This document shows positions 66-31,500 of a DNA stretch of 37,271 bases, in pieces; positions within the stretch are counted from its first letter, which is position 1; every line of letters begins with the position of its first letter. A program made the position numbers and the translations under genes. Under the pieces are notes generated by a model. That model searched no databases and was not told where the DNA came from. It saw only the letters and a list, made by a program, of their open reading frames with translations. Origin of the DNA: Bacilli bacterium. Lineage in GTDB: Bacteria > Bacillota_I > Bacilli_A > JAJDGJ01. The DNA lies in the NCBI GenBank assembly GCA_031272545.1, contig JAISTP010000030.1:1-37271 (forward strand), given 5' to 3'.

Positions 66-3000
66 GTGAAAAATAATAAAAGAAGAGTAACTTTATTAAT
101 GCTTTTACTTGTTGTAACCGGTTTTATAACAATAAGTAAAGTTGATGCGACCACTGAGTTTGTTGGGGATGTTAGTGATGTATGGATGAATGGCCGTTAT
201 GGTTCAGTCATTAAAACTGATGATGGAACATTATATTATGCGGGACAAGATTTGTATGGAAATTTATCTGGTACTGGTAATTATAAAACAGAGTTTACGA
301 AGATTAATTTTAAAGATCAATTCTATGGTACAGGTAAAGAAATTATTCAATATACTTATGCAAATGAGAGTAGAGGCTTTTTACTAGACAATGAAGGTAA
401 TGTTTATTATGCATCTACTTATGATGGAGTAGATTATGATAGATCATTTAGTTATTGTGTTAGAAAAGATAATACTAATACTTGTCATTCTAATTCAGAT
501 AATGCTTATATTCTTCATCCAATATTAGCTAAGTTTAAAGAAGAATATGGTAAGAAAATTATTAGAATAGCTGGTGTTCGTTCAGCATTAATCTTTGAAA
601 CAGAAGATCATGTTCTTTGGGGAATTGGTAATAGTTCAGAAGAAGATGTTACTGATAATATTCTTGGAAGTGGTAGTGTTGTGCTTGGTAGTGGTAATAC
701 TATTGATAAAAGTGAAACAGTTAATAATAAAACAGTTCATGATGTAAAAATGCTAGTAAGTAATGTTCAAGAATGGAAGATTGGTTTCTTTGATTATGCG
801 GAAAATAAAGATGCAAGTAGTCGTTTATGGTTTAAGGCTAACAATAAATGGTACGGTGTAGGTAGTACTTACTACAATCAATTATTAACTAATAAATCAT
901 ATGTTGGTTTTTTAAGTGATAGTGATTTTAATGGACCAACAAATAATTATGGTAAATATGGTCGTGCTCTTGATTATTCAAAGATTAATCAAACATATAA
1001 TAAAAACTATAGTGATGATAATGTCGTTTCAATTGAAGGTTATGGTAGTAGCACAATAATTGTTTTTGATGATGGAATTGCATATCATGTGGGTTTACCA
1101 CAATATTGTAATATTGCGGATAGTGCAGGTAGTGCTTGTTTAGGAGCTGCTACAACAAACCCTATTCAAGTTAAAATGTTTGCTTCACAAGATTATAAAG
1201 ATGAAATAGGACAGGGATGGGATAAAATTGTTCGTACTTTTCCTGGCGCACATGCGATATTTATTCAAACAGAATCTGGACGTATTTGGGCTCGTGGTTC
1301 AAATGATGAAGGTGATTTAGGGTTTGCGACAGATACTAATTATACAGGAAATACACCTTATTTTACTGATATATCAGATGTTAGTAGAACTGGTCAACAA
1401 TTAGCTGTTAGAATTAGAATTACTAATGGTTTAAAACAACAATCACCTATAGAAATAATGAATCCTAAAAAGTTAATTGCGGCTTGGAATGGAACGATTG
1501 CTTTAAGAAATGATGAGTATTTAGTAGGAACAGCTCGTCAAGGAACAAGTGCTTATTCAGGTTATTATGGAGCTCCTAAATATGAATTTGACTATGATGG
1601 TTTTGGCTTTACTAGAATTAAAAGAGCTAATCGTATTGTTAAAAATCCAACTATTATTGTCGATGGTAATAATAATCCTACTTATTGGGAAGAAAATCCA
1701 AGTAATTTACAAATTGGTGATAAAACAGAATGGGTAAATAAAGAAGATGGAAAATATCCAACATATGCACAATATACTATTTATGGGTGTGGAACAAGTG
1801 TTAATAATTATACTTTAAAAGACATTAGTAAATGTACTTATGAAGTAAAAACAAACAATAGTAATAAAAGTGAGTCAAGAACTTATGATAGTAGTATTGA
1901 TGATGCTAATAAAATAGATGATGTTAATTTATATAATGTTGATTTAAGTAGTTTAAATTTAAGTCCAGGATATTATAAATTGGTTGCGAAAAGATATGCC
2001 TTTATAGGACCTGATGGAACTAATGGTGCTTATCCAACTAGTAATGTTAATGCTGGAAAATTACAATATAATTCCAGTATTGGTGATAAAGAATATTATT
2101 TTCAATTTAGTGTTGAACCTAAAATTGAAGCAGATAATGTTACTTTAAATGTTGGTGATACTTTTAATGAACAGGATAATGTTATAGCTACTAATAGTAA
2201 AGGTTTAAATGTTTCTTTTGGTAATAATGATTATGATTTAAAAGTTACTAGTAATAATGTAAATACTAATAAAGTAGGTGTTTATTTTGTTTCATATGAA
2301 ATGAAAGATGAACATGTTGATAAGGTAGTTACTAAAACAATTAGAGTTATTGTTAAAGATAGTAATAGTATTATTAGTGATGATTACTTATTACAAGCTC
2401 ATAGTTATGTTTTAAATAAAGATATTGATGTTGTCAATGGTGGTAATAATGAAATATTAAATAATGCCGAAGCTAAAGCTTTCTTGTTAAGTGATGGTTC
2501 TAGTGTAGATGTTAAAGTAATAAATAATGATAATTATCATAATGAAGTAAATCAATACAGACCAACAATTGCAATAAAAGATGATGAAAGTATTACTAAA
2601 ACAATAGTTGCATCTATTATTGATAATGATACAACTATTAAAGATGATTATGCGATTAAAGGAAAAGATTTTACTATTTTATCTAAAAATGTTGGAGATA
2701 GTAGTGATTTCTATAATGAAAATTATGGTAATTTAAAAATTTGGAATATTGAAGATCCAAATGATGTTGTCGATATTACTTCACCAAATAATTATGATGG
2801 ATATAGTAAAAATGAAAATCTTTATAATGCACAATTTAATATAAAAAATGGCACACTTAATGCTTTAAATATTAAAGCTTTAGTCTTAGATAATGAACGT
2901 TTTGTCGATGGAAATAACTATGTTATTGCGGCTGATAATGTTGTTTTAAGCTTGAGTGATGCTAAAAACATTAGTGATTTGAATGAGTTTATAAGTCTAA

Positions 3001-6000
3001 GTAATGCTAAGGCTAAAAATAAAAATGATTTTAGTAATGGTAATATTATAGTTGATACTAATAATAGTAATTTTAATAGTATTGCTGGTGATTATACAAT
3101 TACTTTTATAGTTCAAGAAGAAACTACTACTAAAATAAGTATTAATGTTAAGGTATTAGACTATGATCATATTACTAGTAATGATGATTATTATTTAGCC
3201 GCAAATGATTTTGATATTAATGTTGGTCGTGTTGCTAGTTTAAATGATAATAAAATTAAATCACAAAGTTCAGTTACTATTTTTGATAAGAACTTTAATA
3301 AACTTAATAATGAAATTAATGTTAGTAAAAATGATATTGTGGCTCAAGTTGGAGGACCTTATGAAGTAATATTTAATATTAACAACACTAATGTTAATTT
3401 AAGTATTATGGTTAATGTTGTTAAAGGAGATAATCCTGTCTTAAACATTCCACAATATACTAAGATTATGATTAATGAATCCTTTGATAAATTTAAGAAT
3501 GTTAGTATTAGTGATACTGAAGATGGAGTTATTAGTCCAAATGATAATAATGTAAATATTAGTGGTATTATAGATACAAGTAAACCTGGTGTTAGTTTAT
3601 TAACTTATTCATTTACTGATAGTGATAATAATACAGTTCAAGCTACTACTTTATTAATTGTCGATGATGGTACTTTTACTATTAATGATGGTTATGTTTT
3701 AACAGCTCATAATTTTATTATAAATAAAAAAGATATTAGTAATGACGATAATGATATTTTAAATAAATCACAAGCTCATGCTTATAATTTAAGTGATGGT
3801 CACGAAGTTAATGTTGTAGTTTATAACAAAAATAATTATAGTAATGTTACTACTGCATCAGAAGTTAATCTTATTTTAGCTGTTCAAGATAATAATAATG
3901 CTAAAAAAATAATTAAAGCTACTATTGTTGATAAAGATGTGATGGCTGTTGGTAATAATTATAGTATTGGAGCTAATAATATTGTTATTGGAAAAAATGA
4001 TGTAAATAATTTAAGTGATAATGAGTTATTAACATTAATGAATGCTGAAGCTTGGCAAGTTAATGATTACTCAGCTAAAGGAACGGTTGTTATTGAAGAT
4101 AAAGATAATATTCAACCTATTGCTGGAGAATATCATTTTGTTTTAAATGTAAAAGAAGAAGCTACTACCAAATTAAATATTACTGTAGAAGTTAGTAATA
4201 AAGATAATTATCTTGAGGATAATGGTTATATTATTACTTCAAATGATATCGTAATAGGAAAAAAAGATGTTAAGAAATTAGATACTGATGATAAAATATT
4301 GCAAGCAATTGATGCTTCAATAATTAAAATTAGTGATAATAGTGAACAAGATAAAGTAATATTAAGTGATGGTGGCTTATCTGATTTAGCAATGCCATAT
4401 GATATAACTTTTGCTTTAAAAGATAATCAAAGTATTACTGGTGTCTCAGCAATTACAGTAATTGATTATGATCATTCATTTAGTAATGATAATTATCAAA
4501 TTAATGCTAATGATATTATTAAAGTGAATACTACACAAGTAGAAGATATTTTAAATAGTAATAGTGAAGCTAAATTAATTAATCTTAGTGAAGCAATTGC
4601 TTATAAAAATAGGGCTAGCATAAATCCAACTATTAAAGTAGATTATGCTTTGTTACAGGCCAAAGAAGGAACTTATCAAGTTAAATTCTATATTGATGAA
4701 GATTCAAATGTTTATGTAATAGCTGATGTAGTTGTCGATAATGGAAATACTCCAACATTAAATGTTAATGAACGTGATAATATTATGGTTGGTAGTGATT
4801 ATGATCCGCTAAGTAATGTTAGTGTTAGTGATGTTGAAGATAGTAATATAAATATTTCAGATATTAAGGTTACATGGGATAAACCATTTAATAAAGATGA
4901 AGTTGGTTTATATCGTATTAATTATGAAGTAGTTGATAGTGATAATAATAAAGCAGTCGCAAGTCGTATTCTTTGTGTTAATGATGGTTCAATTATTTTA
5001 GGAAATGATTATGCTTTACAAGCATATGATTTTGAAGAAAATAAGAGTACTGCTTCAAAAGATGCTAATCACATTATTAATAATTCTCATGCCAAAGCCT
5101 TTAAATTAAGTGATTTTAGTGAAGAAGAAGTTATTGTTAAAGATTATGGAACATATGATGATAATAAAGTTGGTAATCATTCACTTGTTTTAGCAATTAA
5201 AGATGAATCTTCAACAACTAAAGATATTAATGTAGTTGTCTTTGATAGTGATAATTATGTTAGTGATGATAATTATTCTATTATGGGTAATAATATTATT
5301 ATTGGTAAAAATGATGTTTCATCAATAAGTGATGATATGATTATCAGTTATAGTAAAGCTAAAGCTTGGCAAAATACTCATTTTAATGATAATTCATTAG
5401 CTATTGATGTTGATTATCATAATTTACAAGCTAAAGCAGGGACTTATGATGTAATATTAGCTGTTCATGATCATAGTGATGTGAAGATAACTATTAAAGT
5501 TACTGTCTTAGATAAAGATATTGTTAATCAAGGTGCTAATTATGTTATTAGTGGTGATAATGCTATTATCGGTAAAAGTAAAGCTCAAGAATTAAGTAGT
5601 GATAATGATTTTATCTTATTAAATAAAGTTGAAGCATTTAATAATCGTGATGTTAATACTAAAGTAGATGTTTTTGTGGATAGTAATTATTTCTATAATA
5701 CTGTAGGTACTTATGAAGTAAAATATTGTATTAAAGATGAGGCTAGTACTTGTCTTAGTCTTAGTATTGAAGTAGTTGATTATGATCATGCGATAGCATT
5801 AGATAATTATTATTTAAAAGCTAATGATGTTGAAATTAATTTAGGAGAAGTTTCTGGTTTAACTGATGAACTATTTATTAATAAATTAGTGGCTGATACT
5901 AATGGAACAATTAAAGTTAGCGATTTAAGTAATATTCAAAATAGTAAAGGTGAATATTATGTTCATATCTATTTAGATGAAGCTAATAATGTAAAATTAA

Positions 6001-9000
6001 AAATTAAAGTTAATGTTACTAATGGAGAAAGTCCAATTTTAAGTTTTAATTCACCTGTTGAATTAAAAGTTAATGATAATTTTGATGTAATGGATGGAGT
6101 AAGTGTTAGTGATAAAGAAGATGATGATGCTCAATTATTAAATAGCGTTGTTGTTGATAAGACTAGTATTGATACTAGTAAAGCTGGATTATATATTTTA
6201 AATTATTCTGTTATTGATAGTGATTTTAATGAAGTTAAGAAACCTAGAGTTGTTTTAGTTAATGATGGTTCATATATTGTTGGCGATAAATATATTTTAA
6301 AAGCTACTGATTTTGTCATTAATAAAAAAGATGTTAGTCTTAATGATGAAGATATTATTAAGCAAGCTAGTGCTTTAGGTTATACTTTAGCTGTTGATAA
6401 AGTAAATGGTAATGAAGCTAAAGTTATTATTTTAGATAAGAATGATTATCAAGCTGCACCTGGAACTTATACAATTAAATTTGGTGTTGAAGATAATAGT
6501 GATATTAAAGCTAGTAAAGATATTAATGCGACTGTTATTGATAAAGATTATCTTGTAACAGGTAATAGTTATATGATTGCGGCTAATGATATTACACTTG
6601 GGCTTGATGATGTAGATAATTTAAATGAAAACAAAATTATTGATTTAGCTCAAGCTGAAGCTTGGAATAAAAATAATTATCAAACCAAGAGTGATGTTAT
6701 TGTTAATAATATAGATGTTATTAAAAAACAAGCTACATTTGATAGACCTTACTTAGTAACTTTAGCGGTTAAAGATGAAACTAATACGCAATTAGTAATT
6801 AAAGTTCATGTTATAAATAAAGATGTTGTTGTAGATAATCATGATTATTTAATTAGTGGTAATAATTTAGTTATTGGTAAAAAAGACGCTGAAAATTTAA
6901 ATGTTAATGATTTAATTAATATGATGAATGTTGAGGCTATTGAACAAAAAACTAATAATAATATGGATGTAGTATTAATTACTTCAAGTATTGATATTAA
7001 TAAAATTAATGAAAAACAAGGTATCGAATTTAAGATTAAAGATAATGATATTAAGATAACATTAAATCTTTTAATTATTGATAATGATTATGTTGTTCAA
7101 TATGATAATTATTTACTAGTTGCTGATGACTTCTCATTAAGAATTAGTCAAGCTAAAAATATTAGTGATAATGATATTATCCAATTTAGTAAAGCAAAAG
7201 TATTGGATCGTAATTCATTATCAGAATGTGATAATGTGATAGTAAATAATCACAATATTGTTAATGTAAAAGGGACTTATGATGTTAATTTAGGTATTAA
7301 TAGTATTCCTAATTCTTCATTAAGTATTAAAGCTAATGTAATTAGTGGTAGTGCTCCAACAATTGATTTTAATAGTCCAATCATTCTTGATGTAAATGAT
7401 AATTTTGATGTTTATGATGGAGTAATGATTAATGATGCTGATGAAGTATTAACTAATAATAATGTTGATATAACTGGTGATACTGTTGATACTAGTATGA
7501 GTGGAATTTATAAAATACTTTATACTCTAACTGATAGTGATGGTAATATTGCTAGTAAACCTCGTTTGGTTATTGTTAAAGGTAATGGTATTGTAATTAA
7601 TCAACATTATGTTTTAGAAGCTCATAGTTATATTATTAATGCAAATAATTTTAGTGATGATGATGCTAGTATAATTAGTTCAAGTAAAGCTAAAGCCTAT
7701 AATATTGATGATTTAACTAGTGCTGATATTATTGTTTTAGATAAAAATAACTATAGTGCAGTAAGTGGTAAATATCCTCTAAAATTGGCTGTAAAAGATG
7801 ATACTAGTTTAATTAGAGATATTGATGCTTTAGTAATAGCTAATGATAATTATTATGAAAGCTCTAATTATGTTATTACTTCTAATGATGTTATTATGGG
7901 ATTAAAAACAGCTCACTCTATAAAAAATGACCAAGATTTAATTGATATTACTAATGCTCAAGCCTTTAATAAGAAGACTTTAAATAATGAAATTGTATCT
8001 GTTGCTAGTTCTGATTTTAAAGATGTAAGCGGTAATTATGATGTTGTCTTTAAAGTTGATAAGGAACCATCCTCAACAATCAATTCAAAAGTAAGAGTTA
8101 TTGATAAAGATAATGTTGTTGTTAATAATGATTATGGTATTGAGGGTAATGATATTACTCTTGGAACTAAAGATGCTAAAACGATGATTGATAATAATGA
8201 AGTTGAAAATAAAATTATAGCTTTAGCAAAAGCAAGAGCATGGCTAAAGAGTGATTACGATACTTCTTTAAGTAGTTTAGCAATCAAAGATTGTACTTTG
8301 GAAGCTAAAGAAGGTACTTATCAAGCTACTGTTTATCTTGAAGATAAAGTTTCTATGACTATTAATATTAATGTAATTAAAGATGATTATTATTATCAAG
8401 GTAATGCTTATACCATAATTGGTAATGATTTCACAATTAATGAAACAGTTGCTAAAAATATAACTCGTGATGAAATTATTAATCTTGCAAAAGCTAAGAC
8501 TTATTTAAATAGTGACAATAACCAATTGGGAAGTGTAAAAGTATTAAATAATACTATTAAAAATCAAAAAGAAGGTACTTATCAAGTTAAGCTTTATTGT
8601 GATGAAGAAATTGATACTTTCATTATTATTAATGTAACTATTTCTAATGGACAAAAACCTTTATTAAATATTAGTCCTGAATTTGAAGAAGTACCATTAA
8701 ATACATCAAATTATGATGTTAAAAATGGTTTAAGTGCAAGCGATCCTGATGATGCTAGCATTAATGAAAATAATGTTGTTATTAAAGGTAGTGTTGATAC
8801 TTCTCAAGCTGGTATTTATGTAATTAATTATTCATTAACTGATAAAGATTTTAATATTGTTAATAAAACAAGAGTAGTTTTAGTAAATGATGGCTCTTAT
8901 ATTATTGGACAAAATTACATAATTAAAGCTCATGATTTTGAAATAAATAAAAAATATGTTGTTAATGATTTAGATAGTATTATAGTTGCTAGTGAAGCTG

Positions 9001-12000
9001 AAGCTTATTCTAAATTAGATGGAAGTAAAGCAACAGTTATGGTTAAAGATGATGATTCATATTTTTCTAAAGAAATTAAAACTTATCATATTAAATTAGC
9101 TGTTAAAGAAGAAGATACCCTTACTACTAGTATAAATGCAACTATCTTTAATAAAGATAATTCACATGTTAATAGTAGTTATAGTATTGGTGGTAATAAT
9201 GTCGTTCTAGCCCAAGATGAAGTTAAAAATTTAACTAAAGAAAAGTTAATTGACAAAGCACAATTAGAACAATGGGATACAGGTTCATACATTAGTACAA
9301 GAGATAATAATGTGGTTATAAGTGATCGTGAATTTGATAAAATTAATGCTCAGCCTAATACGTATAATATTAGTGTTGCTCATCAAAAGAATAATGGTAT
9401 TACGATTACAATAAAAGTTAAAGTTATTGCTAAAGATGTTGTTAGTTATGATGAAAATTACTTAATTAGTGGTAATAATTTAGTTTTAGGTAAAAAACAA
9501 GCTTTAGCCATTAGTGATATGAATGAATTTATTTCATTGATGAATGTAGAAGGTTTTGATAATAAGGATAATAATGTTGATGTAGAAGTAGTTACTGCTT
9601 TAAATGAATTTGATGTTAATAAAAATGTTCAAGAGATTGAATTTAAAGTAAAAGATGTCATTCGACCTACTATTAAAGTTAAATTAACTATTTTAGATTA
9701 TGATTATGTTCAAGAAAATAATGGTTTAATTATTGCCGCAAATGATTTTAGTATTAGAAAATCACAAGTTAATAACTTAGATATTGTAAGTAAAGCAAAA
9801 GCTACTATCTTTGAAAAAGATAATCTTACTAAACCAAGTACTAATTACCAAGTTGAAATAAAACAAGGACAAGTTAATACTGATATTAAAGATTATGCTA
9901 TAGAATTAGGTATTAAAGATAATAATGAACCTACTTTAACAATTAATGTTAGTGTTGGTGCAGGACAGATACCTGATTTAAATGTAAGTCCTTTAGTAAT
10001 AATCAATAAAGATAAGAATGAAACATATCAAGAAAATGACATTAGTGTTAGTGATCAAGAAGATGGTACTAATCTTAATATTATTGCATCTGGCGATAAT
10101 GTTAATAATCAAGAAATAGGTATTTATTTTAGATATTATAGTGTAACTGATAGTGATAATAATAGTGTAAATAAAACAAGAATGATAGTAGTTAATGATG
10201 ATAAGAATTCTATAATTGTTGATGAAAATAAAGGTTATGTTTTAAAAGCTGATAATTATGTTATTAATAGTAAAGATGTAATAGATAATGATTTTAGTCA
10301 AATTATTACCTTAAGTAATGCAATTGCTTATCGTATTAGTGATGCTAAACAAGTTGAAGTAATTGTAAGTAATAGTGATAACTATAATAAAAATGTTGGT
10401 TTATATCAACCAATAATAGCTTTAAAAGATGATACAAGTATTAATAAAAAAATTAATATTAATGTATTAAATAAAGATATTATTCAAAATGGTAATGTTT
10501 ATGCTATTGGCGCTAAATCAATTAAAATAGGTAAAGAAAAAGCTCGTGTTTTAGCACATGATAATAATAAATTAATTGAAGCTCTACATGCTGAAGCGTG
10601 GCAAATAAAAGACTATAATCAAAAAGGAACTGTTGAAGTAACTAATACTAGTAATCTTCAAGCTCAAGTTGGAGATTATGATATTACCTTAAAAGTAAAA
10701 GAAGATAGTGTTAGTATTCAAGTAAAAGTAATTGTTGTTGATTATGATATTTATGAATATGATGATGAATATGAGTTAATGGCTAATAATATTGTCATAG
10801 GTAAAGAAGATGCTAAAAATATTAGTGATAATAAGATGTTATTATCTTTAGCTGATGCTAAAGCTATTAAATTGACAGATAATAGTAAAGCTAATGTAGA
10901 ATTAGATAAAACTAATTTCCAATCAGATAAAGGTTCTTATCAAGCTCAAATAAGTGTAAAAGAAAAGAATAGTATTAAAACTAATTTAAGTATTGAAGTT
11001 AAGGATAATGATCATGCTCAAAAAGGTAATAATTATGTAATAGTAGGTAATGATTTTACTATCAATACTACTAAAGCAAGTAATATTACTAATGATGAAA
11101 TTATAAATTTAGCTAAGGCAAATGGATATTTAGCTAACGATGTAAATCAAAAAGGTAATGTTATTGTAATAAGTAATGCAATTGTTGGACAAGAAGGTCA
11201 ATTTTCAGTAGTATTAGGCTTACAAGAAGATAATAAAGCTTTAATTACGATAAATGTTATTGTAACAAATGGTAAAGCACCAATCTTAGAAGTAAATAAT
11301 CCAATTGAACTTAAAGTTAATGATTCTTTTAATCCAAAAAATACTATAACTAAATTAGAAGATGATAAAGATCAATTAAATAAAAATGATGTTGTTATCA
11401 GTGGTAATGTTGATACTAAGGTGGCTGGTATTTATGTATTAACATATCAAGTATCTGATAGTGATTATAATGTTACTGAAGTAAAACAAGTAGTTATTGT
11501 TAATGATGGTAATTATTTAATTAAAGATAATTATGTGATTAAAGCATGTGATTTTAGCGAATATGTAGATAATACAGAATTAAGTGAAAATCATATTCTT
11601 AAAGAAAGTAAGGCTTATGGTTATGATATTAAGAATAATAAGGAAGTAAGTGTAATTTTATATAATATTAATGATTATCAAGCTAAAGCTGGTAAATATA
11701 CTATTGAATTAGCTCTAAAAAATAATAATGATGTTAGAAAATCACAAACAATTATTGTAAAAGATTTACCACAAGCTGTACTTAATAATGTAAAAGATAA
11801 TTATAATTTAATAAAAGATCATGAGTTTAATTTAGATTTTATTAATGATGATAATGTAAATATTAAATTAAATTCTAGTAATGAAGATATTGTAAGCGTG
11901 GATAATACTGGCGTAATTAAAGGACTTAATAAAGGAACATCAATAATTAAAATTATTGTATCTACTAGAGATGGTTTAAAAGAAACAAGTAAAGAAGTTA

Positions 12001-12509
12001 TAATAAATGTTGGATTAATGTTTGAACCAGAAGTAGATTACAATAATGAAGAAGCTATTGATGCAAGTAATGTTGAATTAACATTAAGCGAGACTAAAGA
12101 TTTAAATGAAAAATTATTAATTAATAAAGCTCATGCTTCGGCATGGTCAATAAATAAACAAACTTTAAATGATGATATTAAAGTAGTAGTTAATAATCAT
12201 AAAATTAAATCTAAGTTATCTTGGGATGGTAAAAAAGCATTATTAAGCTCTGAAACAAAAGATATTAATCGTGGCTATGTTTATCCAATAACATTTAGTA
12301 CTAATAAAGGAACTAATATTACTATTTATGCTCGTGTAGTACCTGATCAAGATAATGAATCATCTAGTGAAGTGATTACAAATAATAAAAATAGTAATAA
12401 AGGTAAAAAAATAATTGTAAATACAGGAAGTAATTATTTGCTTATTGCTTTAAGTTTATTAGTCGTTAGTGAAATTACTTATTTATGTTATACTCGTCAA
12501 AGTAAATAG
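66..12509 (+). CDS. Giant secreted repeat protein, 4147 aa, C-terminally anchored
   Basis: Probable cell-surface stalk or adhesin; the ligand is unknown. The GTG start is chosen because a strong SD (AGGAGAGG, about 53-60) sits five bases upstream and the frame opens with a signal peptide (basic MKNNKRR, hydrophobic core, likely cleavage after VDA near residue 28). Residues about 40-515 carry seven RCC1-like blade motifs. From residue about 685 the protein is a regular array of two module types. Type B resembles DUF5011/HYR Ig-like domains (VDTSKAGIYxLxYSVTDSD). Type A, about 85-95 residues, I cannot name. A Big_2-like domain (about 3901-3985) and one divergent A-like module follow. The last 31 residues are IVNTGS, a hydrophobic span and a basic tail. 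Composition is rich in Asn, Asp, Ser and Val with almost no Cys. It is followed by a terminator and an orphan response regulator gene. Surface location is well supported; function is not. Confidence 0.93.
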   Translation: MKNNKRRVTLLMLLLVVTGFITISKVDATTEFVGDVSDVWMNGRYGSVIKTDDGTLYYAGQDLYGNLSGTGNYKTEFTKINFKDQFYGTGKEIIQYTYANESRGFLLDNEGNVYYASTYDGVDYDRSFSYCVRKDNTNTCHSNSDNAYILHPILAKFKEEYGKKIIRIAGVRSALIFETEDHVLWGIGNSSEEDVTDNILGSGSVVLGSGNTIDKSETVNNKTVHDVKMLVSNVQEWKIGFFDYAENKDASSRLWFKANNKWYGVGSTYYNQLLTNKSYVGFLSDSDFNGPTNNYGKYGRALDYSKINQTYNKNYSDDNVVSIEGYGSSTIIVFDDGIAYHVGLPQYCNIADSAGSACLGAATTNPIQVKMFASQDYKDEIGQGWDKIVRTFPGAHAIFIQTESGRIWARGSNDEGDLGFATDTNYTGNTPYFTDISDVSRTGQQLAVRIRITNGLKQQSPIEIMNPKKLIAAWNGTIALRNDEYLVGTARQGTSAYSGYYGAPKYEFDYDGFGFTRIKRANRIVKNPTIIVDGNNNPTYWEENPSNLQIGDKTEWVNKEDGKYPTYAQYTIYGCGTSVNNYTLKDISKCTYEVKTNNSNKSESRTYDSSIDDANKIDDVNLYNVDLSSLNLSPGYYKLVAKRYAFIGPDGTNGAYPTSNVNAGKLQYNSSIGDKEYYFQFSVEPKIEADNVTLNVGDTFNEQDNVIATNSKGLNVSFGNNDYDLKVTSNNVNTNKVGVYFVSYEMKDEHVDKVVTKTIRVIVKDSNSIISDDYLLQAHSYVLNKDIDVVNGGNNEILNNAEAKAFLLSDGSSVDVKVINNDNYHNEVNQYRPTIAIKDDESITKTIVASIIDNDTTIKDDYAIKGKDFTILSKNVGDSSDFYNENYGNLKIWNIEDPNDVVDITSPNNYDGYSKNENLYNAQFNIKNGTLNALNIKALVLDNERFVDGNNYVIAADNVVLSLSDAKNISDLNEFISLSNAKAKNKNDFSNGNIIVDTNNSNFNSIAGDYTITFIVQEETTTKISINVKVLDYDHITSNDDYYLAANDFDINVGRVASLNDNKIKSQSSVTIFDKNFNKLNNEINVSKNDIVAQVGGPYEVIFNINNTNVNLSIMVNVVKGDNPVLNIPQYTKIMINESFDKFKNVSISDTEDGVISPNDNNVNISGIIDTSKPGVSLLTYSFTDSDNNTVQATTLLIVDDGTFTINDGYVLTAHNFIINKKDISNDDNDILNKSQAHAYNLSDGHEVNVVVYNKNNYSNVTTASEVNLILAVQDNNNAKKIIKATIVDKDVMAVGNNYSIGANNIVIGKNDVNNLSDNELLTLMNAEAWQVNDYSAKGTVVIEDKDNIQPIAGEYHFVLNVKEEATTKLNITVEVSNKDNYLEDNGYIITSNDIVIGKKDVKKLDTDDKILQAIDASIIKISDNSEQDKVILSDGGLSDLAMPYDITFALKDNQSITGVSAITVIDYDHSFSNDNYQINANDIIKVNTTQVEDILNSNSEAKLINLSEAIAYKNRASINPTIKVDYALLQAKEGTYQVKFYIDEDSNVYVIADVVVDNGNTPTLNVNERDNIMVGSDYDPLSNVSVSDVEDSNINISDIKVTWDKPFNKDEVGLYRINYEVVDSDNNKAVASRILCVNDGSIILGNDYALQAYDFEENKSTASKDANHIINNSHAKAFKLSDFSEEEVIVKDYGTYDDNKVGNHSLVLAIKDESSTTKDINVVVFDSDNYVSDDNYSIMGNNIIIGKNDVSSISDDMIISYSKAKAWQNTHFNDNSLAIDVDYHNLQAKAGTYDVILAVHDHSDVKITIKVTVLDKDIVNQGANYVISGDNAIIGKSKAQELSSDNDFILLNKVEAFNNRDVNTKVDVFVDSNYFYNTVGTYEVKYCIKDEASTCLSLSIEVVDYDHAIALDNYYLKANDVEINLGEVSGLTDELFINKLVADTNGTIKVSDLSNIQNSKGEYYVHIYLDEANNVKLKIKVNVTNGESPILSFNSPVELKVNDNFDVMDGVSVSDKEDDDAQLLNSVVVDKTSIDTSKAGLYILNYSVIDSDFNEVKKPRVVLVNDGSYIVGDKYILKATDFVINKKDVSLNDEDIIKQASALGYTLAVDKVNGNEAKVIILDKNDYQAAPGTYTIKFGVEDNSDIKASKDINATVIDKDYLVTGNSYMIAANDITLGLDDVDNLNENKIIDLAQAEAWNKNNYQTKSDVIVNNIDVIKKQATFDRPYLVTLAVKDETNTQLVIKVHVINKDVVVDNHDYLISGNNLVIGKKDAENLNVNDLINMMNVEAIEQKTNNNMDVVLITSSIDINKINEKQGIEFKIKDNDIKITLNLLIIDNDYVVQYDNYLLVADDFSLRISQAKNISDNDIIQFSKAKVLDRNSLSECDNVIVNNHNIVNVKGTYDVNLGINSIPNSSLSIKANVISGSAPTIDFNSPIILDVNDNFDVYDGVMINDADEVLTNNNVDITGDTVDTSMSGIYKILYTLTDSDGNIASKPRLVIVKGNGIVINQHYVLEAHSYIINANNFSDDDASIISSSKAKAYNIDDLTSADIIVLDKNNYSAVSGKYPLKLAVKDDTSLIRDIDALVIANDNYYESSNYVITSNDVIMGLKTAHSIKNDQDLIDITNAQAFNKKTLNNEIVSVASSDFKDVSGNYDVVFKVDKEPSSTINSKVRVIDKDNVVVNNDYGIEGNDITLGTKDAKTMIDNNEVENKIIALAKARAWLKSDYDTSLSSLAIKDCTLEAKEGTYQATVYLEDKVSMTININVIKDDYYYQGNAYTIIGNDFTINETVAKNITRDEIINLAKAKTYLNSDNNQLGSVKVLNNTIKNQKEGTYQVKLYCDEEIDTFIIINVTISNGQKPLLNISPEFEEVPLNTSNYDVKNGLSASDPDDASINENNVVIKGSVDTSQAGIYVINYSLTDKDFNIVNKTRVVLVNDGSYIIGQNYIIKAHDFEINKKYVVNDLDSIIVASEAEAYSKLDGSKATVMVKDDDSYFSKEIKTYHIKLAVKEEDTLTTSINATIFNKDNSHVNSSYSIGGNNVVLAQDEVKNLTKEKLIDKAQLEQWDTGSYISTRDNNVVISDREFDKINAQPNTYNISVAHQKNNGITITIKVKVIAKDVVSYDENYLISGNNLVLGKKQALAISDMNEFISLMNVEGFDNKDNNVDVEVVTALNEFDVNKNVQEIEFKVKDVIRPTIKVKLTILDYDYVQENNGLIIAANDFSIRKSQVNNLDIVSKAKATIFEKDNLTKPSTNYQVEIKQGQVNTDIKDYAIELGIKDNNEPTLTINVSVGAGQIPDLNVSPLVIINKDKNETYQENDISVSDQEDGTNLNIIASGDNVNNQEIGIYFRYYSVTDSDNNSVNKTRMIVVNDDKNSIIVDENKGYVLKADNYVINSKDVIDNDFSQIITLSNAIAYRISDAKQVEVIVSNSDNYNKNVGLYQPIIALKDDTSINKKININVLNKDIIQNGNVYAIGAKSIKIGKEKARVLAHDNNKLIEALHAEAWQIKDYNQKGTVEVTNTSNLQAQVGDYDITLKVKEDSVSIQVKVIVVDYDIYEYDDEYELMANNIVIGKEDAKNISDNKMLLSLADAKAIKLTDNSKANVELDKTNFQSDKGSYQAQISVKEKNSIKTNLSIEVKDNDHAQKGNNYVIVGNDFTINTTKASNITNDEIINLAKANGYLANDVNQKGNVIVISNAIVGQEGQFSVVLGLQEDNKALITINVIVTNGKAPILEVNNPIELKVNDSFNPKNTITKLEDDKDQLNKNDVVISGNVDTKVAGIYVLTYQVSDSDYNVTEVKQVVIVNDGNYLIKDNYVIKACDFSEYVDNTELSENHILKESKAYGYDIKNNKEVSVILYNINDYQAKAGKYTIELALKNNNDVRKSQTIIVKDLPQAVLNNVKDNYNLIKDHEFNLDFINDDNVNIKLNSSNEDIVSVDNTGVIKGLNKGTSIIKIIVSTRDGLKETSKEVIINVGLMFEPEVDYNNEEAIDASNVELTLSETKDLNEKLLINKAHASAWSINKQTLNDDIKVVVNNHKIKSKLSWDGKKALLSSETKDINRGYVYPITFSTNKGTNITIYARVVPDQDNESSSEVITNNKNSNKGKKIIVNTGSNYLLIALSLLVVSEITYLCYTRQSK
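150..1540 (+). other. RCC1-like seven-blade propeller domain (coding region)
   Basis: Seven short segments share the RCC1 blade pattern of a beta strand, an acidic/Gly turn and an aromatic strand. They are SVIKTDDGTLYYAGQD, GFLLDNEGNVYYAS, ALIFETEDHVLWGIGN, RLWFKANNKWYGVGS, STIIVFDDGIAYHVGL, AIFIQTESGRIWARGS and GTIALRNDEYLVGTAR. Seven is the blade number of a closed RCC1 propeller. The blades occupy roughly residues 40-515, just after the signal peptide, so this would be the outermost, ligand-facing end of the anchored protein. The assignment rests on motif reading; spacing between blades is wider than in classical RCC1 because of insertions. Confidence 0.6.
2118..11765 (+). repeat. Five-module super-repeat array: seven full units plus a truncated eighth
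   Basis: Each unit is one DUF5011-like B module followed by four A modules. The conserved Pro that opens each B module lies at 2118, 3435, 4752, 6033, 7356, 8658, 9972 and 11280 (residues 685, 1124, 1563, 1990, 2431, 2865, 3303, 3739). The spacings are 439, 439, 427, 441, 434, 438 and 436 residues. The eighth unit has B plus only one A before the Big_2-like domain. A modules share Tyr-x-Ile/Leu-x-Ala/Gly-Asn-Asp at the start, a KAxAW/F-like centre, a Gly-Thr-Tyr-x-Val strand and a closing (V/I)xD(K/Y)D. The repeat is clear in protein but worn at the DNA level, which suggests old duplication of whole units. Confidence 0.88.
12414..12506 (+). other. C-terminal anchoring signal, IVNTGS type
   Basis: The last 31 codons of the giant protein read IVNTGS, then a hydrophobic stretch (YLLIALSLLVVSEITYL), then a short basic tail (CYTRQSK). 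A Ser/Asn/Lys-rich linker precedes it. This is the layout of a sortase signal, but the Leu-Pro of LPXTG is absent. The other two surface proteins in this window end in the same way and at the same length. Confidence 0.7.
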
Positions 12510-19215: not shown

Positions 19216-20674
19216 TATATTATAGTTTTTTTAAGAAAGAGGGATGTTAATGAATAAGATAAAGGTTTTAATGTTGATGTTATGTTGTAGTTTATTTTTA
19301 ATGTTATCTAATAATGTTCTAGCATTTAATACAACGACTAATTCAACATTAAATATGCGATTTTTTAAACCTAATGCCACAACTAGATATTTATATGTTT
19401 ACGCTAATGAGGGTGAAGAAATTAAAATAAACTTATTTGATTCAGTTATTAACTCTACTGGTGTTAACCAAGATTTTACTTTTCAATTATAAGATCCATC
19501 AGGTAATATCGAATTTAGTGAAAATTCACCATTTACTTCGACAACAACAGCAGGGACTTATTTAGATAAAACAATTACAGCAACAGAAGATGGTGTTTAT
19601 GTTTTAAGTTTTATTAGTAATGCCCAATTGGTAACTGAGTTTGATATTAGTGTCTATAATAATGGTGAAGAACAAAAAGGAAGACTATTTTCATTTAGAC
19701 AAAATTATGCTTTAAATGAAAGAAATGCTAATGGAACTTATGAAGAGTTTTATGTTTTAGGTGCCAATGGTTATTTATATAATATTAAATTTCCTAATGC
19801 TCGTAGCTATAATGCAGCCTATGTTTGGCCTTCTGGATTAGGTGCTTATGATGCTAATAATAATTATGTTGCTTATGATGAATCATTTGATCGTGCTGCT
19901 TTACCTAGTTATATAACAGGTGGTGCATGCGTTACATGTGGAGATTATAAAATATTTTATGAAAAACCAGATAGTAGTATGCCTGCTAAAGCAAAATTTG
20001 GTAATTTTCCAATAGAATTATCTTTGAATCCTCTACCTTTAGAAGACAGAGATAATGTTGCTAGTATTGATAGTTTTACATATGATAATCAATTAATTTC
20101 TAAAGCTGGAACATTTACTTATTCAATTGATCCAGATTATAGTGGTAATTATTATTTCCAAATAGATACTAATAATAATGGCAGTTATGATGATGATGTC
20201 GATATTAGTGTATTGAGAGGTGCACGAGGTGCCTTTTCTACTACTACATATGAAAGTTTAAATAGTAACTTAACTTATATATTTGATGGTAAAGATGGTC
20301 TAGGTAATGATATTCCTATAGATAGAACCATTAAAGCTCGTTTATTACTTGAAAATACTGGGAAAATGTATTTTGCAATGTATGATTTTGAATCAAATCC
20401 AGGTGGAATTATCGTTGAAAAATTAAATGGTAGTTTAAGTGGTGATAAAACTGTATATTGGGATGATACTAAATTAAGTACAACTGGCTTTACAGCAATT
20501 AATATTCCGACACAATTAGATGGTACTATGGGCGTTGATTCAAGTAATGGTGTTCATAGTTGGGGTGCAATTCCTTTTAGTGGTTTAGGATGGGATGATA
20601 ATGAACGTTATGTTTACAATTGGATTTTAAATCCTGTAAAATCATTTAATGATGTTATGGAATTAAAGCCAAGT

Positions 20675-21277
20675 GATCATGATCATGACGGTATTCCTGA
20701 TTATGTGGAAGTGGGAAGTGATGTTAATAATCCGATTGATAGTGATGGCGATGGGATTGCCGATTGGGATGATTTAGATAGTGATAATGATGGTATTCCA
20801 GATAAAATTGAAGCTGTAAATAATGATGGTAGTGGAGATCCTACTTATCCTGTTGATACTGATAATGATGGAATCCCAGATTACTTAGATACTGATAGTG
20901 ATAATGATACTATTCCAGATTATGTCGAAGGAGATACTCAAAATCATGGTGATATTTCTAGTATTGCTTTAGATACTGATCAAGATGGAATCCCAGATAA
21001 TATTAAAGATTATCAACCTACTGATACTGATGGAGATGGTGTACCAGATTATCGAGATATTGATAGTGATGATGATGCTATTCCAGATAGTGTTGAAGCA
21101 ATAAATAGTGATGGTAGTGGAGATTCTGCAAATCCAGTAGATACTGATGGAGATGGTATTCCAGATTATCGTGATGTTGATAGTGATAATGATACTTTAT
21201 TAGATATTGATGAAGTTGGACCTGATCCAATGCATCCACAAGATAGTGATAATAATGGTATTCCTGATTATCGACAA
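20675..21277 (+). repeat. Thrombospondin type 3-like calcium-binding repeats
   Basis: Eleven Asp-rich motifs of the form D-x-D-x-D-G-I-P-D occur in a row (for example DSDGDGIAD, DTDNDGIPD, DTDGDGVPD). A few have the Gly replaced (DSDNDTIPD, DSDDDAIPD). This pattern binds calcium and forms a stiff rod in secreted proteins. It sits just before the anchor, in stalk position. Confidence 0.85.
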
Positions 21278-21313
21278 TTTAATGAATTACCAAAAAGTAA
21301 TACTGGTAATAAA

Positions 21314-21406
21314 ATTGTTAAAACAGGTAATGAAATGTTAAATATAAGTCTTTTAACAATAATTACAACATTAGTATTTAGCATATCTTATCTTAAGATA
21401 AGAAAA
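21314..21406 (+). other. C-terminal anchoring signal, IVKTGN type
   Basis: The last 31 codons read IVKTGN, a hydrophobic stretch (ISLLTIITTLVFSISYL) and the basic tail KIRK. Its length and layout equal those of the other two surface proteins in the window. Confidence 0.7.
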
Positions 21407-21422
21407 TAAAGATATTAATAAT

Positions 21423-25580: not shown

Positions 25581-28500
25581 ATGAGAAAGAGAAAAATATT
25601 ATTTTTTAGTATCGTCTCGGCTATAGCTATAATGCTAGGTTTAAGTTTTATTTTGCCTAGTGCTAAAGCTGCTGACTATGTGACGGACTTTCAATTGTCT
25701 GGAGGGAACAGTACTAATCTTGTTACTGGAAGTCTTAGTACTAATCAACCAGGACAACCTTATGAAGTTGCGACTGGAGCAGATTCTGTATTTTATTTAA
25801 ACTATAGTATCTCACCAGTACCTTTAAATCCTGGAGGTGAACCTCAACTTGAAGCAGGCAAGGTTGCCTTTAGATTAAAAATACCAAGTGATTGTGGGCA
25901 GTCTATTTCAATGAATCAATCATCAACTTGGGGTTTTAAAGAGGGAAGTGCTACTGATTATAATGGGACACCAGCTACTGGAGATTATAAATACTATTGG
26001 TATTATAGTACTGAAGATTTAAATTTCATTTTAACAGGGCAAGGTGCTTTTACAATAACTGATGTTTTTGAAAATGGGACAACTAATGATGGAACTTCAT
26101 GTTCTATTGAAGCACAACTTTATAATTTTAATCCAGCTACTCCTACCGCTGTAGATGATAGTTTTTCAAGTAGTTTTGTTGCGCAAACTAATCAATTTAA
26201 TTGGTCTAACGTAACTTTAGGTGCTACTGTTAATACTGATGATAGTGGACAAACTCCGGGAGCTGATGCGACAACTTCATGGACAACCACTAGAAATGTA
26301 AGTGATCCTGTTGTGGATGTTGCTATTCCTTTATTAAATTTTAATTTGAAAACATCACCTAATCCTGCAACATTACCTAATGGTGGAAGCTATGCTCAAT
26401 CAATAACTTATAATGAAACATATAATGTTCCTATGGGGACAACTGATACTAGTTGCCCATTGGTTAAGATAACGGATAAATCACAATTTATTGATAAAAA
26501 TGGTAATCCGATTAATCCTAATTGGATAACTTTAAATAAAAATAGTAATGGTTTGGTAACTAGTTTTACGATTAATCCTGTAATTACCAATACTAGTAAT
26601 CCAGCTAGTGAATTAAATCCTACAGAATTTTGGTTTGGCATTAAAGGGGCAATGGTTAATTCATCTTGTAGTGATATTCAAAATGCTAGTGTGAATAATC
26701 CTGTTAGTTTTAAATTTACTACTGGTGCAAGTACTCATTTAGTTAAACCTATGGCTACTTTAGATAGTAGTGTTAATCTAACTAATGGTAATTTAGTTAT
26801 TAATCAAAGTAATTTACCTAATGTTACTTTAAACTATGTTGTTAGATTAGCTGAACTACCAGAAGATTCTTTTAAGAAAACTATAAAAAAAGTAACTAAA
26901 ATTGGAACAAGTGATGTTAATCAAAGTGGTATGGCTGATCCAACTGCTCTTTCAGCATATGTAGGAGATAATGTAACTTATGAACTAGGTGCTGAACATA
27001 TTAAGAATAATAATAGTGTTCCGATAACTATTAAATATACTGAAACAGCATCAGCTGATTTTGATACTTCTAAAATTAGATTGACTAGTATTAATTCTGG
27101 AGCATTAAGTATACCTAATATTGATCGTAAAATCACCATTACTTATAGTGATGGGACTACTATAGATAATTCAAGTAGCGATGGAGCAGACGGAGCAGAT
27201 GGTTCTGATACAACTGGAAATAATAATTCAAGAACATGGATTGTTGATAGTGATGTTAATAGTGGTAAATATGTAACTTCTTTTACTATTGAGTTTACTT
27301 TACCACCAGGAGCATATGTTAATAATACTGGCCCATTAGCTAATTATGTGGTAGTTGATTCAAATAATATAGCTAATGAAGGAACTGATTTTATTAATAA
27401 AGTAAATCAAACATATACGATTACAATGAATGGAACTACGACCACAAAAGATAGTAACGATTCAGTTAATATTAAATATAAAAATGTACCTAATAATGAT
27501 GCTTCTTTAAATAACTTCAATAAGACTGGAGCTAACTTAAGTAGACCTAATGCTCATCCTGTATCAGGTGATGTTGTCTTATTTACATGGGAGTTAAGAA
27601 ATAATACTGGAAGTAATTTAAATATTGATGATATTAAAGATTTATATTCTTCTTCAGCTTTAAGTCCATATAATGGTACTGCAGATGTTCCAAGTAAATA
27701 TCAAAACGCTAATAATAGTTTAAATATGTTGTTATGGACAGGTGATCCTACTTCTACTAGTAGTGCAACTTCGTGGCCTGGTGGTGAACCTACTATTACT
27801 TTAGGTGCATATAGCAATGATAATATTATTGATGTTAAGATGGCTGATAACAATCCTATTGTTGTACCTAGTGGTTCAACATACTATATTACTATGACTA
27901 TGAAAGTAAAAGATGGTGTTGGCGCAAAATCAGCTTTAGGAGATTATTTTAATACATATTATGATGGCATTAAGAATGGTGAAGGTTTATATTGGTGGAG
28001 TGCTAGTACTGGTGGCTTAGGAAGTGATAATAAATATCATAGTAATGGTAGTGTTCCAGTAAATATTACTACGCCATGGACTTCTTATCCTTATAGTAAT
28101 GATGTTGTAACTTATGCAATTAGAGTTGTTAATAATACTGATGAGACATGGGGTGATGATGGACCAATAACTATTAATGATGCTTATGATAAAGATACAT
28201 CTCGTTATGATGGTGATACTGATTTTCCTTATAATAGTAGTAATTTAAACTGGACTTCTGGTGGTACAAATAATGGAAGTTGTGAAATGTGTGCTGGTCT
28301 TAATTTAAATAATCCATTTAATTTAGGAGTAGTTACATCAACGGAAAATATTTATGTATGGGGCGTTAATATGGAAACAGGTGTTGGAACAGGTGCTAAT
28401 CTAAAAACAACAGCTGCTAATTTTGATGAATCACAAGTAAGTGTTACTAATATAGATGAAACAAATCGTACTTTTACTGTTAATTTAGGTAATAATAAGA

Positions 28501-31500
28501 TTGCTCCAGGGGAACAAGTTGTTTTAGCTTATACCGTAAAAGTTAATCCTAATGTTAGTGCTACAGATCCAGTAGTAAGCAATCCAACAGATGATCAAAC
28601 AGTAGCTGGAGAATATGATGATTATGATTATGGTACTAAGGAAAATGAAATTATTAATAATTTTGAAGTGTTAAATAATGGTACTACTGTTGGAACAGGT
28701 AAAGATATTTTCCAAGTTAATCCTAATGAGAATGTTCAAGGAGTTGTTGATTTAACTAAAGGTATTTCACAAGATACTGATGGAGATGGTACTGATGATG
28801 TTGATTCCACAAAATTAAAGGATAATGAAGAAATAAAATATGTTGTAACTGTTTCTAATGATCATATTAAAGCTGACCGTTTCTTTAAAGTACAAACTTT
28901 AATTGACCAATTACCTGAACATATTTCATATAAGACTAATTCATTTGCTTTAAAATATTATAAGATTGAATCAACTGTTAATAGTAATGGTACCTTTAAT
29001 ATTGATGCTGGAACTAAAACAGAAATGGCATTGCCAAGTGGCGCTAATAACTATACTATTGATAGTAGTGATCCACATAAATTAATTGTTAAATGGGCTA
29101 ATCCTATTGAATTAACTTCTAGTACTTATAGTGATGATACTTTCCAAAAAGTAACTACTTATCAATATGAACTTACTTATTTAGGAGTTGTGGATACTGC
29201 AGGTATTGATGAAGGACAAAATACAATTGATCAAACTAATACTGCTACTGTCTTCTTCACTAATGCCAAGAGCGAATTAATTGCTAAAAATGGTACTATT
29301 GGTGATGATAGTAGTGCCAATGTTGATAATAATACTAATACTAAATCAACTTTAAGTGCTGAAAGTACCGTTACTTTACTTAATGATTCTTATAATTATG
29401 GTAAGATTGTAAAAACTGCTTCTAATGCTAATTTCAATATTGATTCAATCGGTACAGGCCGTAATTATAATGTAGCTATTACTAATACTGGGGCTAATGA
29501 TTGGACAATATCTAAAATAGTTGATATCTTAGCTGAATATGAGAAGATTGATAAATCTAGTTTAGTAATTGCTTATCCTAGTGATACCGCCAATGTTGAT
29601 TATCCAGATAATATTACAGCGGCAGCTAGTGATATTAGTACAGCTAATGTTTCTAATTCTAGTGCGACATATGAAAAATTTACTTATGTACATGATTTAG
29701 TTATACCTGCAGGTCAAACAGTAAAAATTAGTTATAATACTATAGTTGATAAAGATGCAGTTCATGATGTATTAAAAGCATCACAAACAAGTACATATGA
29801 TTCAAAAGCTAATAACTTTGCGATGTATATGAAAAACAATGCTACCTTAAACTTAAATGGTGGTGGTATGGCAACTAGTGATAATACTAGTACAAGTGAT
29901 TTTGATGGTAATTATGATAATGATAATAATACTGGTATTCGTTATCAAGCTGATTTAGATACTAATTATTTAGATAATTCACTTTCACCAGCCGTTAATA
30001 TTCAAGCTAAAGTTCCACAAACTGATGGTACATTATTAGATTATTCACAAGGGGTAACACCAATTAATCCTGGGGATAATTTAGCTTGGAATATTTGGAT
30101 TGGTAATCAAACTAATGCTACAGCACCAATTTTCCCTGGTGCTAAGATAATTCTTGTTTTACCTGAAGGTGTAACTGCCGCAACTAATAATGATGGTAGT
30201 ACCATTCAATATTTACAATCAAGTAATTATCCAGCTGCATGGAATAGTAATTCAATTGTGGATAATACTACAAAACCTTCATGGTTAAGTGATCCAGTAG
30301 TAAGTACAGTTAATGGTAAACAAGTAATTGAATGGACTATTACTTCTAGTGCTAATTTACCACCAGGTGCATCGACTACTGGTTTTGCAGGATTTACAAT
30401 TAATTCAATTACTAAACCATATACTTATACTTCTTATGCACCTGATGTTTATTTTGTACCATTACAAAATGATAGTATGCAAGATTTCTATGACAGTGTT
30501 GTAACAAGCACTGGTGGTGGTGTTGCTTGTGCTTGGCAACCATGGAATTATATGGTTGAAGAAAGCAATATTAGTAATTTAGATGCATCATTAACCGGTA
30601 CTTCACATTATGTTAAAGATAATATTCCAGTTGATGTTTATGGAGCATATGGTATGTCTGCTTATAAATCATTAACTTATGATGGTAATACTATAACTTC
30701 GCGTGATAGTAATCGTGTTATGGAATTAGCTAATCGTGATGATATCTTTACTTATACTTTAACTATTTCAAGTGAAAAAGCTGATGCTGTATTAAATACA
30801 CCAGTTATTGTCGATCGTTTACCAAATATAGATGACACAGGTGTTACAGCGCAATATGCTTCTACTGATCGTGATAGTAAAGCACCTGTTAGATTAGTTG
30901 GTGATGGTGACTTTGTAGTTGATTTAGTTGATGGAAGTGGTAATGTTACAACATTAGATCCATCTCAATATACAATTGAATATATGTTTGAAAACAATGC
31001 AACATTCACTGATGATGATATGAATGGAGTTGCTAATGCTTCTCGTTGGTATGATAGTGATGCTGTACAAAATGCTAATAAAGACTTTAATGATGCAACA
31101 GCTATTAGAGTAAAAATTACTGATGGAGCAGTTAGAATTGCTGGTAATGGTAAATTAAATGTTAGCTTTAAAGCACATCTTGGTTTAGAAGAAGATGCCA
31201 GTGATTATAATAATCCTGATAATATTGCTTATAATAACTTTGGATATAAGATTGATTATGGTGTATCTTTAACTAAAATTATTACAGATGTTATTCAAGT
31301 TGGAGTAAAAGCTGATGTTCCTGATGCTCAAGCTAGTATCGTTAAAAATATTGATTTAAACGGACATACTGATAGTGCTTCAAGAACTAATTTCTTAAAT
31401 AATAATTCGCAAACATTTAACTTTACTTATGTTGGAAAAGATGCTAGTAATACTGTGCAATATAGTTGTGATTTCTCAATAAATGCTAATACTTCTAATA

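Follow-up and report, generated by a model that had tools for sequence, protein, structure and literature searches.

A bacterial surface protein with a stalk of repeated five-module blocks and distinct opening, middle and closing modules

The gene at 66..12509 on the forward strand of the window (the whole 37,271-nucleotide stretch of DNA analyzed, which begins contig C55 of a 1.32 Mb genome) encodes a surface protein of 4147 amino acids (460 kDa, pI 4.6) whose stalk repeats a block of one B module and four A modules. It is probably a sortase-anchored, rod-like surface adhesin, in which an RCC1-type head is carried on a stalk built by block duplication from three inherited types of A module. 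The gene has a GTG start, and inspection of the sequence places AGGAGAGG upstream of it, at 53–60. Read directly from the protein, the module order is head, B0, (A1 A2 A3 A4 B)×7, A1, a Big_2-like stretch, a degenerate A module and a sorting tail; all features lie on the forward strand.

The B modules belong by profile to PF16403 (Bact_surface_Ig-like, DUF5011-like), with a whole-protein E value of 1e-55. All eight score above the curated cut-off of 27 bits (27.4–45.5 bits): B0 (aa 683–765, 2112..2360), B1 (aa 1120–1201, 3423..3668), B2 (aa 1559–1640, 4740..4985), B3 (aa 1986–2067, 6021..6266), B4 (aa 2427–2506, 7344..7583), B5 (aa 2861–2942, 8646..8891), B6 (aa 3299–3380, 9960..10205) and B7 (aa 3735–3814, 11268..11507). 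The A module is ∼87 residues long, and four of them fill each gap between successive B modules. By the A profile, supplemented by a tree for block 1, the A1–A4 runs occupy aa 766–1119 (2361..3422) in block 1, aa 1202–1558 (3669..4739) in block 2, aa 1641–1985 (4986..6020) in block 3, aa 2068–2426 (6267..7343) in block 4, aa 2507–2860 (7584..8645) in block 5, aa 2943–3298 (8892..9959) in block 6 and aa 3381–3734 (10206..11267) in block 7. The eighth block comprises B7 and an A1 module alone (aa 3815–3899, 11508..11762; A profile and tree), and is followed by a weak Big_2 match (aa 3931–3969, 11856..11972; PF02368 E 0.008, below cut-off), the degenerate A module (aa 3989–4056, 12030..12233; A profile) and the membrane tail. 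In total, the iterated profile detects 29 full A modules, each with an i-E of 1e-16 or less, in addition to the degenerate copy near the C terminus.

This order bears out a sequence-only reading of the same DNA, which had described a five-module block present seven times and cut short in an eighth, with exactly four A modules for each B; four are found in 7/7 complete blocks. The B-to-B spacings are 437, 439, 427, 441, 434, 438 and 436 amino acids. They match the periods given in that reading except for the first, put there at 439 because of a different choice of B0 start. The A modules match no Pfam or NCBIfam model above its cut-off. Against PDB sequences the best E values are 0.31–0.39, none of them significant, and no solved structure was found. 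Nor is any kinship between A and B detectable by profile comparison (hhalign 1.3%).

An AlphaFold model of block 2 with the B modules on either side (B1 to B2; 521 aa, mean pLDDT 89.8, pTM 0.67) reveals the fold class directly. Four β-β-α-β-β-β-β units lie between two B β-sandwiches, so that the model agrees with the count of four A modules per block, and the block is a chain of β-sandwich beads with short links in which each A module has one or two short helices. The model also matches Big_3 (2kpn) by fold. Whole-block Foldseek matches to S-layer proteins, cadherin and the titin I-band were set aside: their TM-scores of 0.1–0.2 signify merely a string of Ig-like beads.

Within the window, A modules at the same position in the block resemble each other, with a mean identity of 0.295 compared with a maximum of 0.276 among 10,000 within-block label shuffles; same-position identity (mean 29.5%) reaches maxima of 50–53%, and the window repeats overall span 13–53%. 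Neighboring A modules within a block resemble each other no more than unrelated pairs do (0.234 versus 0.230), and modules never cluster by neighbor. In a maximum-likelihood tree of the window modules, 8/8 A1 modules fall on one side of a branch (support 93/88), as do 7/7 A4 modules for another (89/79), although these supports, drawn from the window alone, fall short of the 95/80 standard. A2 and A3 are intermingled on the tree (6 and 5 changes, respectively); A3 as a single clade is rejected (p-AU 0.028), and A2 as a single clade has a p-AU of 0.076. The earlier proposal that each of the four A modules has its own character and would group by position therefore stands for A1 and A4, which form one group each, and falls for A2 and A3. 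The A2 of block 1 is A1-like in the window protein and in both relatives, by tree and by profiles.

When ∼10 residues are trimmed from each end of the modules, the A1 group persists (78/75), and A4 requires 2 changes, a number as low as which is seen in 0/500 shuffles, although A4 support falls. The survival of A1, and nearly of A4, means that the signal is more than linker sequence. Tyr59, which lies inside the fold, is present in 17/17 A1 modules of two genera versus 5% of other A modules. The alignment also upholds the specific characters picked out earlier: an INKKDV-like segment in A1, which follows VNDGS, and a Gly-rich link from A4 to B, which takes the form Gly-x-x-Pro.

A-like modules are found by profile search in 26/100 related genomes. 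A block profile searched class-wide against 395 genomes finds the block near-complete in two genomes only, that of the window and G003 (Erysipelotrichaceae bacterium OttesenSCG-928-M19), from a sister genus of the same family; the other matches listed in that search each cover a B module, as many as about four A modules, or both. G003 is likely of insect-gut origin; a cockroach-hindgut single-cell genome study covers the same family (PMC10266427), and the strain name was not found in its text. The contigs of G003 break inside the repeats, and whole genes are unreadable there. When typed with profiles built from the window only, its closed intervals read B-A1-mid-mid-A4, save for an A1-like A2 in the first block. 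Its long open runs read A1-(mid)n, with n at least 9, and a contig end reads (mid)n-A4, followed by a SpaA-like domain at the C terminus. Where no B closes a run, the number of A modules ranges from one to at least eleven.

In a tree of both genera, the G003 A1 modules all group with the window A1 modules and the A1-like A2 of the first block (support 99/95). A1 and A2 of the first block each have an orthologue in the other genus (99/95 and 100/99), and most other blocks appear to have diversified separately in each lineage. One related protein (L050) is orthologous from its first residues, RCC1 head included, with 38% identity over 1354 aa; in another (L045), the head is unrelated but the stalk behind it is the same. 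Considered together, these assignments favor B-A1-(A2/3)n-A4, in which A1 would open a run, A4 would close it and the middle type would fill it, as a better rule than selection on length or phase.

More distant genomes hold other arrangements of the two modules. In G041, from another family, a 1954-aa open frame (L055) shows strict B/A alternation, with 12 B and 11 A modules. G030 (family f17) has many A-rich arrays (L053, L054 and L056) and many short open frames of about 245 aa, each with one A module. A 24,248-residue open frame in G008 was dropped, as it corresponds to masked N.

We propose that the stalk arose by duplication of a complete B-A1-A2-A3-A4 unit, in which three A types would be inherited: a starting A1, always after B; an interchangeable middle type, A2/A3; and a closing A4, which precedes either B or the C-terminal domain. 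The repeat would be set by the copying of blocks, and copying of whole blocks would give the fixed count of four. Diverged A modules probably stop recombining, which would freeze that count in closed blocks, with no ruler. Duplication of the whole block, as the sequence-only reading had suggested, is supported by the A1 and A4 groups, by the lack of neighbor clustering and by a block copy in L045. In that protein, blocks 2 and 3 share 63, 73, 59, 40 and 69% identity in B, A1, A2, A3 and A4, respectively, compared with 24–41% among the A modules within either block. This sister-genus relative (L045/L068) thus retains a direct trace of a recent copy of the whole block. The window copies are old: block pairs have mean identities of 27–42%, the one notable pair being blocks 4 and 6 (mean 42%, p 0.03). 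Between-block similarity matrices for the five positions show no correlation in the window (all Mantel p > 0.1), and the order of block copying is therefore irrecoverable there. The open A runs of G003, at 60–66% mean identity and up to 92%, appear from sequence to grow one module at a time.

The lack of congruence between block positions would also suit a different account, in which the modules multiplied singly and the likeness among A1 and among A4 modules reflects selection at the junction to fit a B neighbor. Consistent with this, in the 1:1 B/A array of G041, 11/11 A modules score best as A1, versus 9/37 in the A-rich arrays of G030 (p 7e-6; single scores are weak), making “A after B” distinct outside the block, and the drop in A4 support on trimming places part of the A1/A4 signal in end residues. 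However, L045 contains a recent copy of a whole block, and both the persistence of A1 as a single group on the trimmed core and the discriminating residues inside the fold, such as Tyr59, argue against it. We consider growth by single modules unlikely and favor duplication of the whole block.

The sequence-only reading had further proposed that selection maintains stalk length and phase. A related possibility is a functional ruler, a 437-residue unit whose length and phase are selected, for example, so that B modules line up with a periodic partner or with neighboring stalks. Block length does vary little (427–441), and four A modules, n = 2 of them of the middle type, are present in each of the 12 complete B-to-B intervals from the two genera (seven in the window, five in G003). 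However, the observed block-length variance of 17.6 is that of a sum of independent module lengths (20.5 expected), so that in the window this test finds no length compensation among modules within blocks, and the open runs of the relative extend to 10 or more A modules without a B. The proposed selection on length and phase therefore finds no support, and we regard a ruler as improbable; the lack of compensation instead supports a count of four that was frozen without one.

At its N terminus, the protein has a predicted signal peptide (aa 1–28, 66..149), assigned from the sequence; an orthologue (L067) has a start of the same kind. The head that follows (aa 30–682, 153..2111) comprises an RCC1-type β-propeller and the region after it. 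It matches PF25390 (RCC1) with an E value of 1.3e-9 at 38 bits, below the cut-off of 150. On a low-confidence model (pLDDT 46), RCC1-like structures make up nearly all of the best Foldseek matches listed for the head (E to 9e-14); because this model is poor, they serve solely as support for the Pfam match. The C terminus (12399..12506) resembles a sortase-type sorting signal, with IVNTG in place of LPXTG, followed by a membrane helix and a basic end, and the genome encodes two sortases. From this tail, the sortases and the bead-chain model, we infer an extended shape, attachment to the cell wall and adhesion; the most likely role is therefore that of an extended, wall-anchored stalk presenting an RCC1-like propeller to a gut surface or glycan. 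The ∼39 β-sandwich modules would hold the head away from the cell. Ig-like domains add about 4 nm each; if all ∼39 beads did so, the stalk would have a length of the order of 150 nm. That the protein is instead shed or matrix-forming, as in an S-layer or pilus-like layer, is improbable: the best Foldseek matches of the block include the S-layer proteins EA1 and SbsB, and two tail contigs of the relative end in a SpaA-like domain without a membrane tail, but TM-scores near 0.1 reflect shared Ig-like beads only, and the protein itself ends in a sortase-type tail, in a genome with sortases.

In the relative, the A-run proteins at L046 and L048 end in a SpaA-like domain without an anchor or membrane tail, and a secreted gene follows directly after each; the one after the L048 protein has an SPKTG tail. 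Anchoring here possibly involves two proteins. In the window, three proteins share IV[NDK]TG tails, at 12399–12506 (IVNTG), 34857–34964 (IVDTG) and 21299–21406 (IVKTG), and a fourth protein outside it (L075) has an IVTTG tail; other proteins encoded in the genome have LPKTG, TPKTG or MPETG tails. With two sortases and two kinds of tail, the genome may possibly have two sorting classes. The IVDTG protein (25581–34967) is a second giant surface protein, of 3128 aa, with eight SpaA modules and an FctA isopeptide domain, and sits between ribosomal-protein/methyltransferase genes and rpoB. The IVKTG protein (19628–21409) has thrombospondin-type-3-like repeats, a TTG start and no signal peptide, and its gene may be cut short or interrupted at the 5′ end.

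A-type domains also occur as a tandem pair within PotA-type ATPases ∼530 aa long; at least nine genomes, from families f13 and f19, encode such proteins (L020 and L022–L029; for example, L024:475-2064). The A profile search detects the pair with per-genome E values down to 6e-12, and profile-profile comparison with A gives 98.3% for the first PotA domain and 88.8% for the second. In the C-terminal region of these proteins, the TOBE match ends where the A-type pair starts. PotA in the window's own family has the usual 349–356 aa. The presence of a domain of an Ig-like stalk inside a cytoplasmic polyamine transporter ATPase is unexpected.

By analogy, a plan in which one domain comes in separate forms for the first, middle and last places is otherwise best known from the muscle protein titin. 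In the FnIII domains of the titin A-band, type A always opens a run, type C always closes it and type B lies in the middle, domains at equal positions are more alike than neighbors, and growth was by super-repeat duplication (PMC10665226). The likeness is one of design, with no homology claimed: a super-repeat of two kinds of module, with start, middle and end types, that grows by duplication. Start, middle and end types occur in both the window protein and its relative, and super-repeat duplication is seen in blocks 2 and 3 of L045, but an own group for every position is absent, since A2 and A3 intermingle. Titin differs in being eukaryotic, in its FnIII and Ig domains, with runs of two or three FnIII, and in having a thick-filament partner of matching period, whereas the window stalk is on a bacterial surface, has one B and four A modules per block and has no known partner.

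Among bacterial surface proteins, Periscope Proteins (SasG, Aap, Rib and Sgo0707) are likewise single-chain stalks of tandem domains bearing a head, but their repeats are highly identical and differ in number from strain to strain (PMC9704523). The window repeats are far from this near-identity, and the open A runs of the relative come closer to it. The Mobiluncus mulieris giant adhesin (7651 aa, 51 ester/isopeptide cross-linked Ig-like domains) is similarly a giant sortase-anchored Ig-like stalk and the largest protein of its proteome, as described in the available part of PMC10619420, in which no block grammar is reported; unlike its domains as described there, the A modules show no conserved cross-linking pair in their alignment. 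In honeybee-gut bifidobacteria, RCC1-repeat surface proteins combine 2–4 RCC1 domains with Flg_new repeats (PMC4449606). There too, an insect-gut bacterium displays an RCC1 propeller on a surface protein anchored by sortase, whereas the window protein has one head on a long B/A stalk. Literature matches to “super-repeat” and “adhesin” concerned mucins only (a reference-list entry and a title).

We give roughly equal weight to acceptance and rejection of a broader proposal, in which A modules form an uncatalogued domain family whose inherited subtypes for start, middle and end govern how the stalk is built (B-A1-(A2/3)n-A4), in a bacterial parallel to the domain grammar of titin, and in which the same domain was also inserted as a tandem pair in the TOBE region of PotA in other families of the class. 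The A domain merits a family entry of its own. Strict 1:1 B-A alternation in one family, B-A4 blocks here and long A runs in the sister genus provide a natural series on the function of start and end domains, and a simple rule predicts module order in relatives. The stalk of a bacterial adhesin can grow by copying of multi-domain blocks with specialized first and last domains, beyond slippage of single identical repeats.
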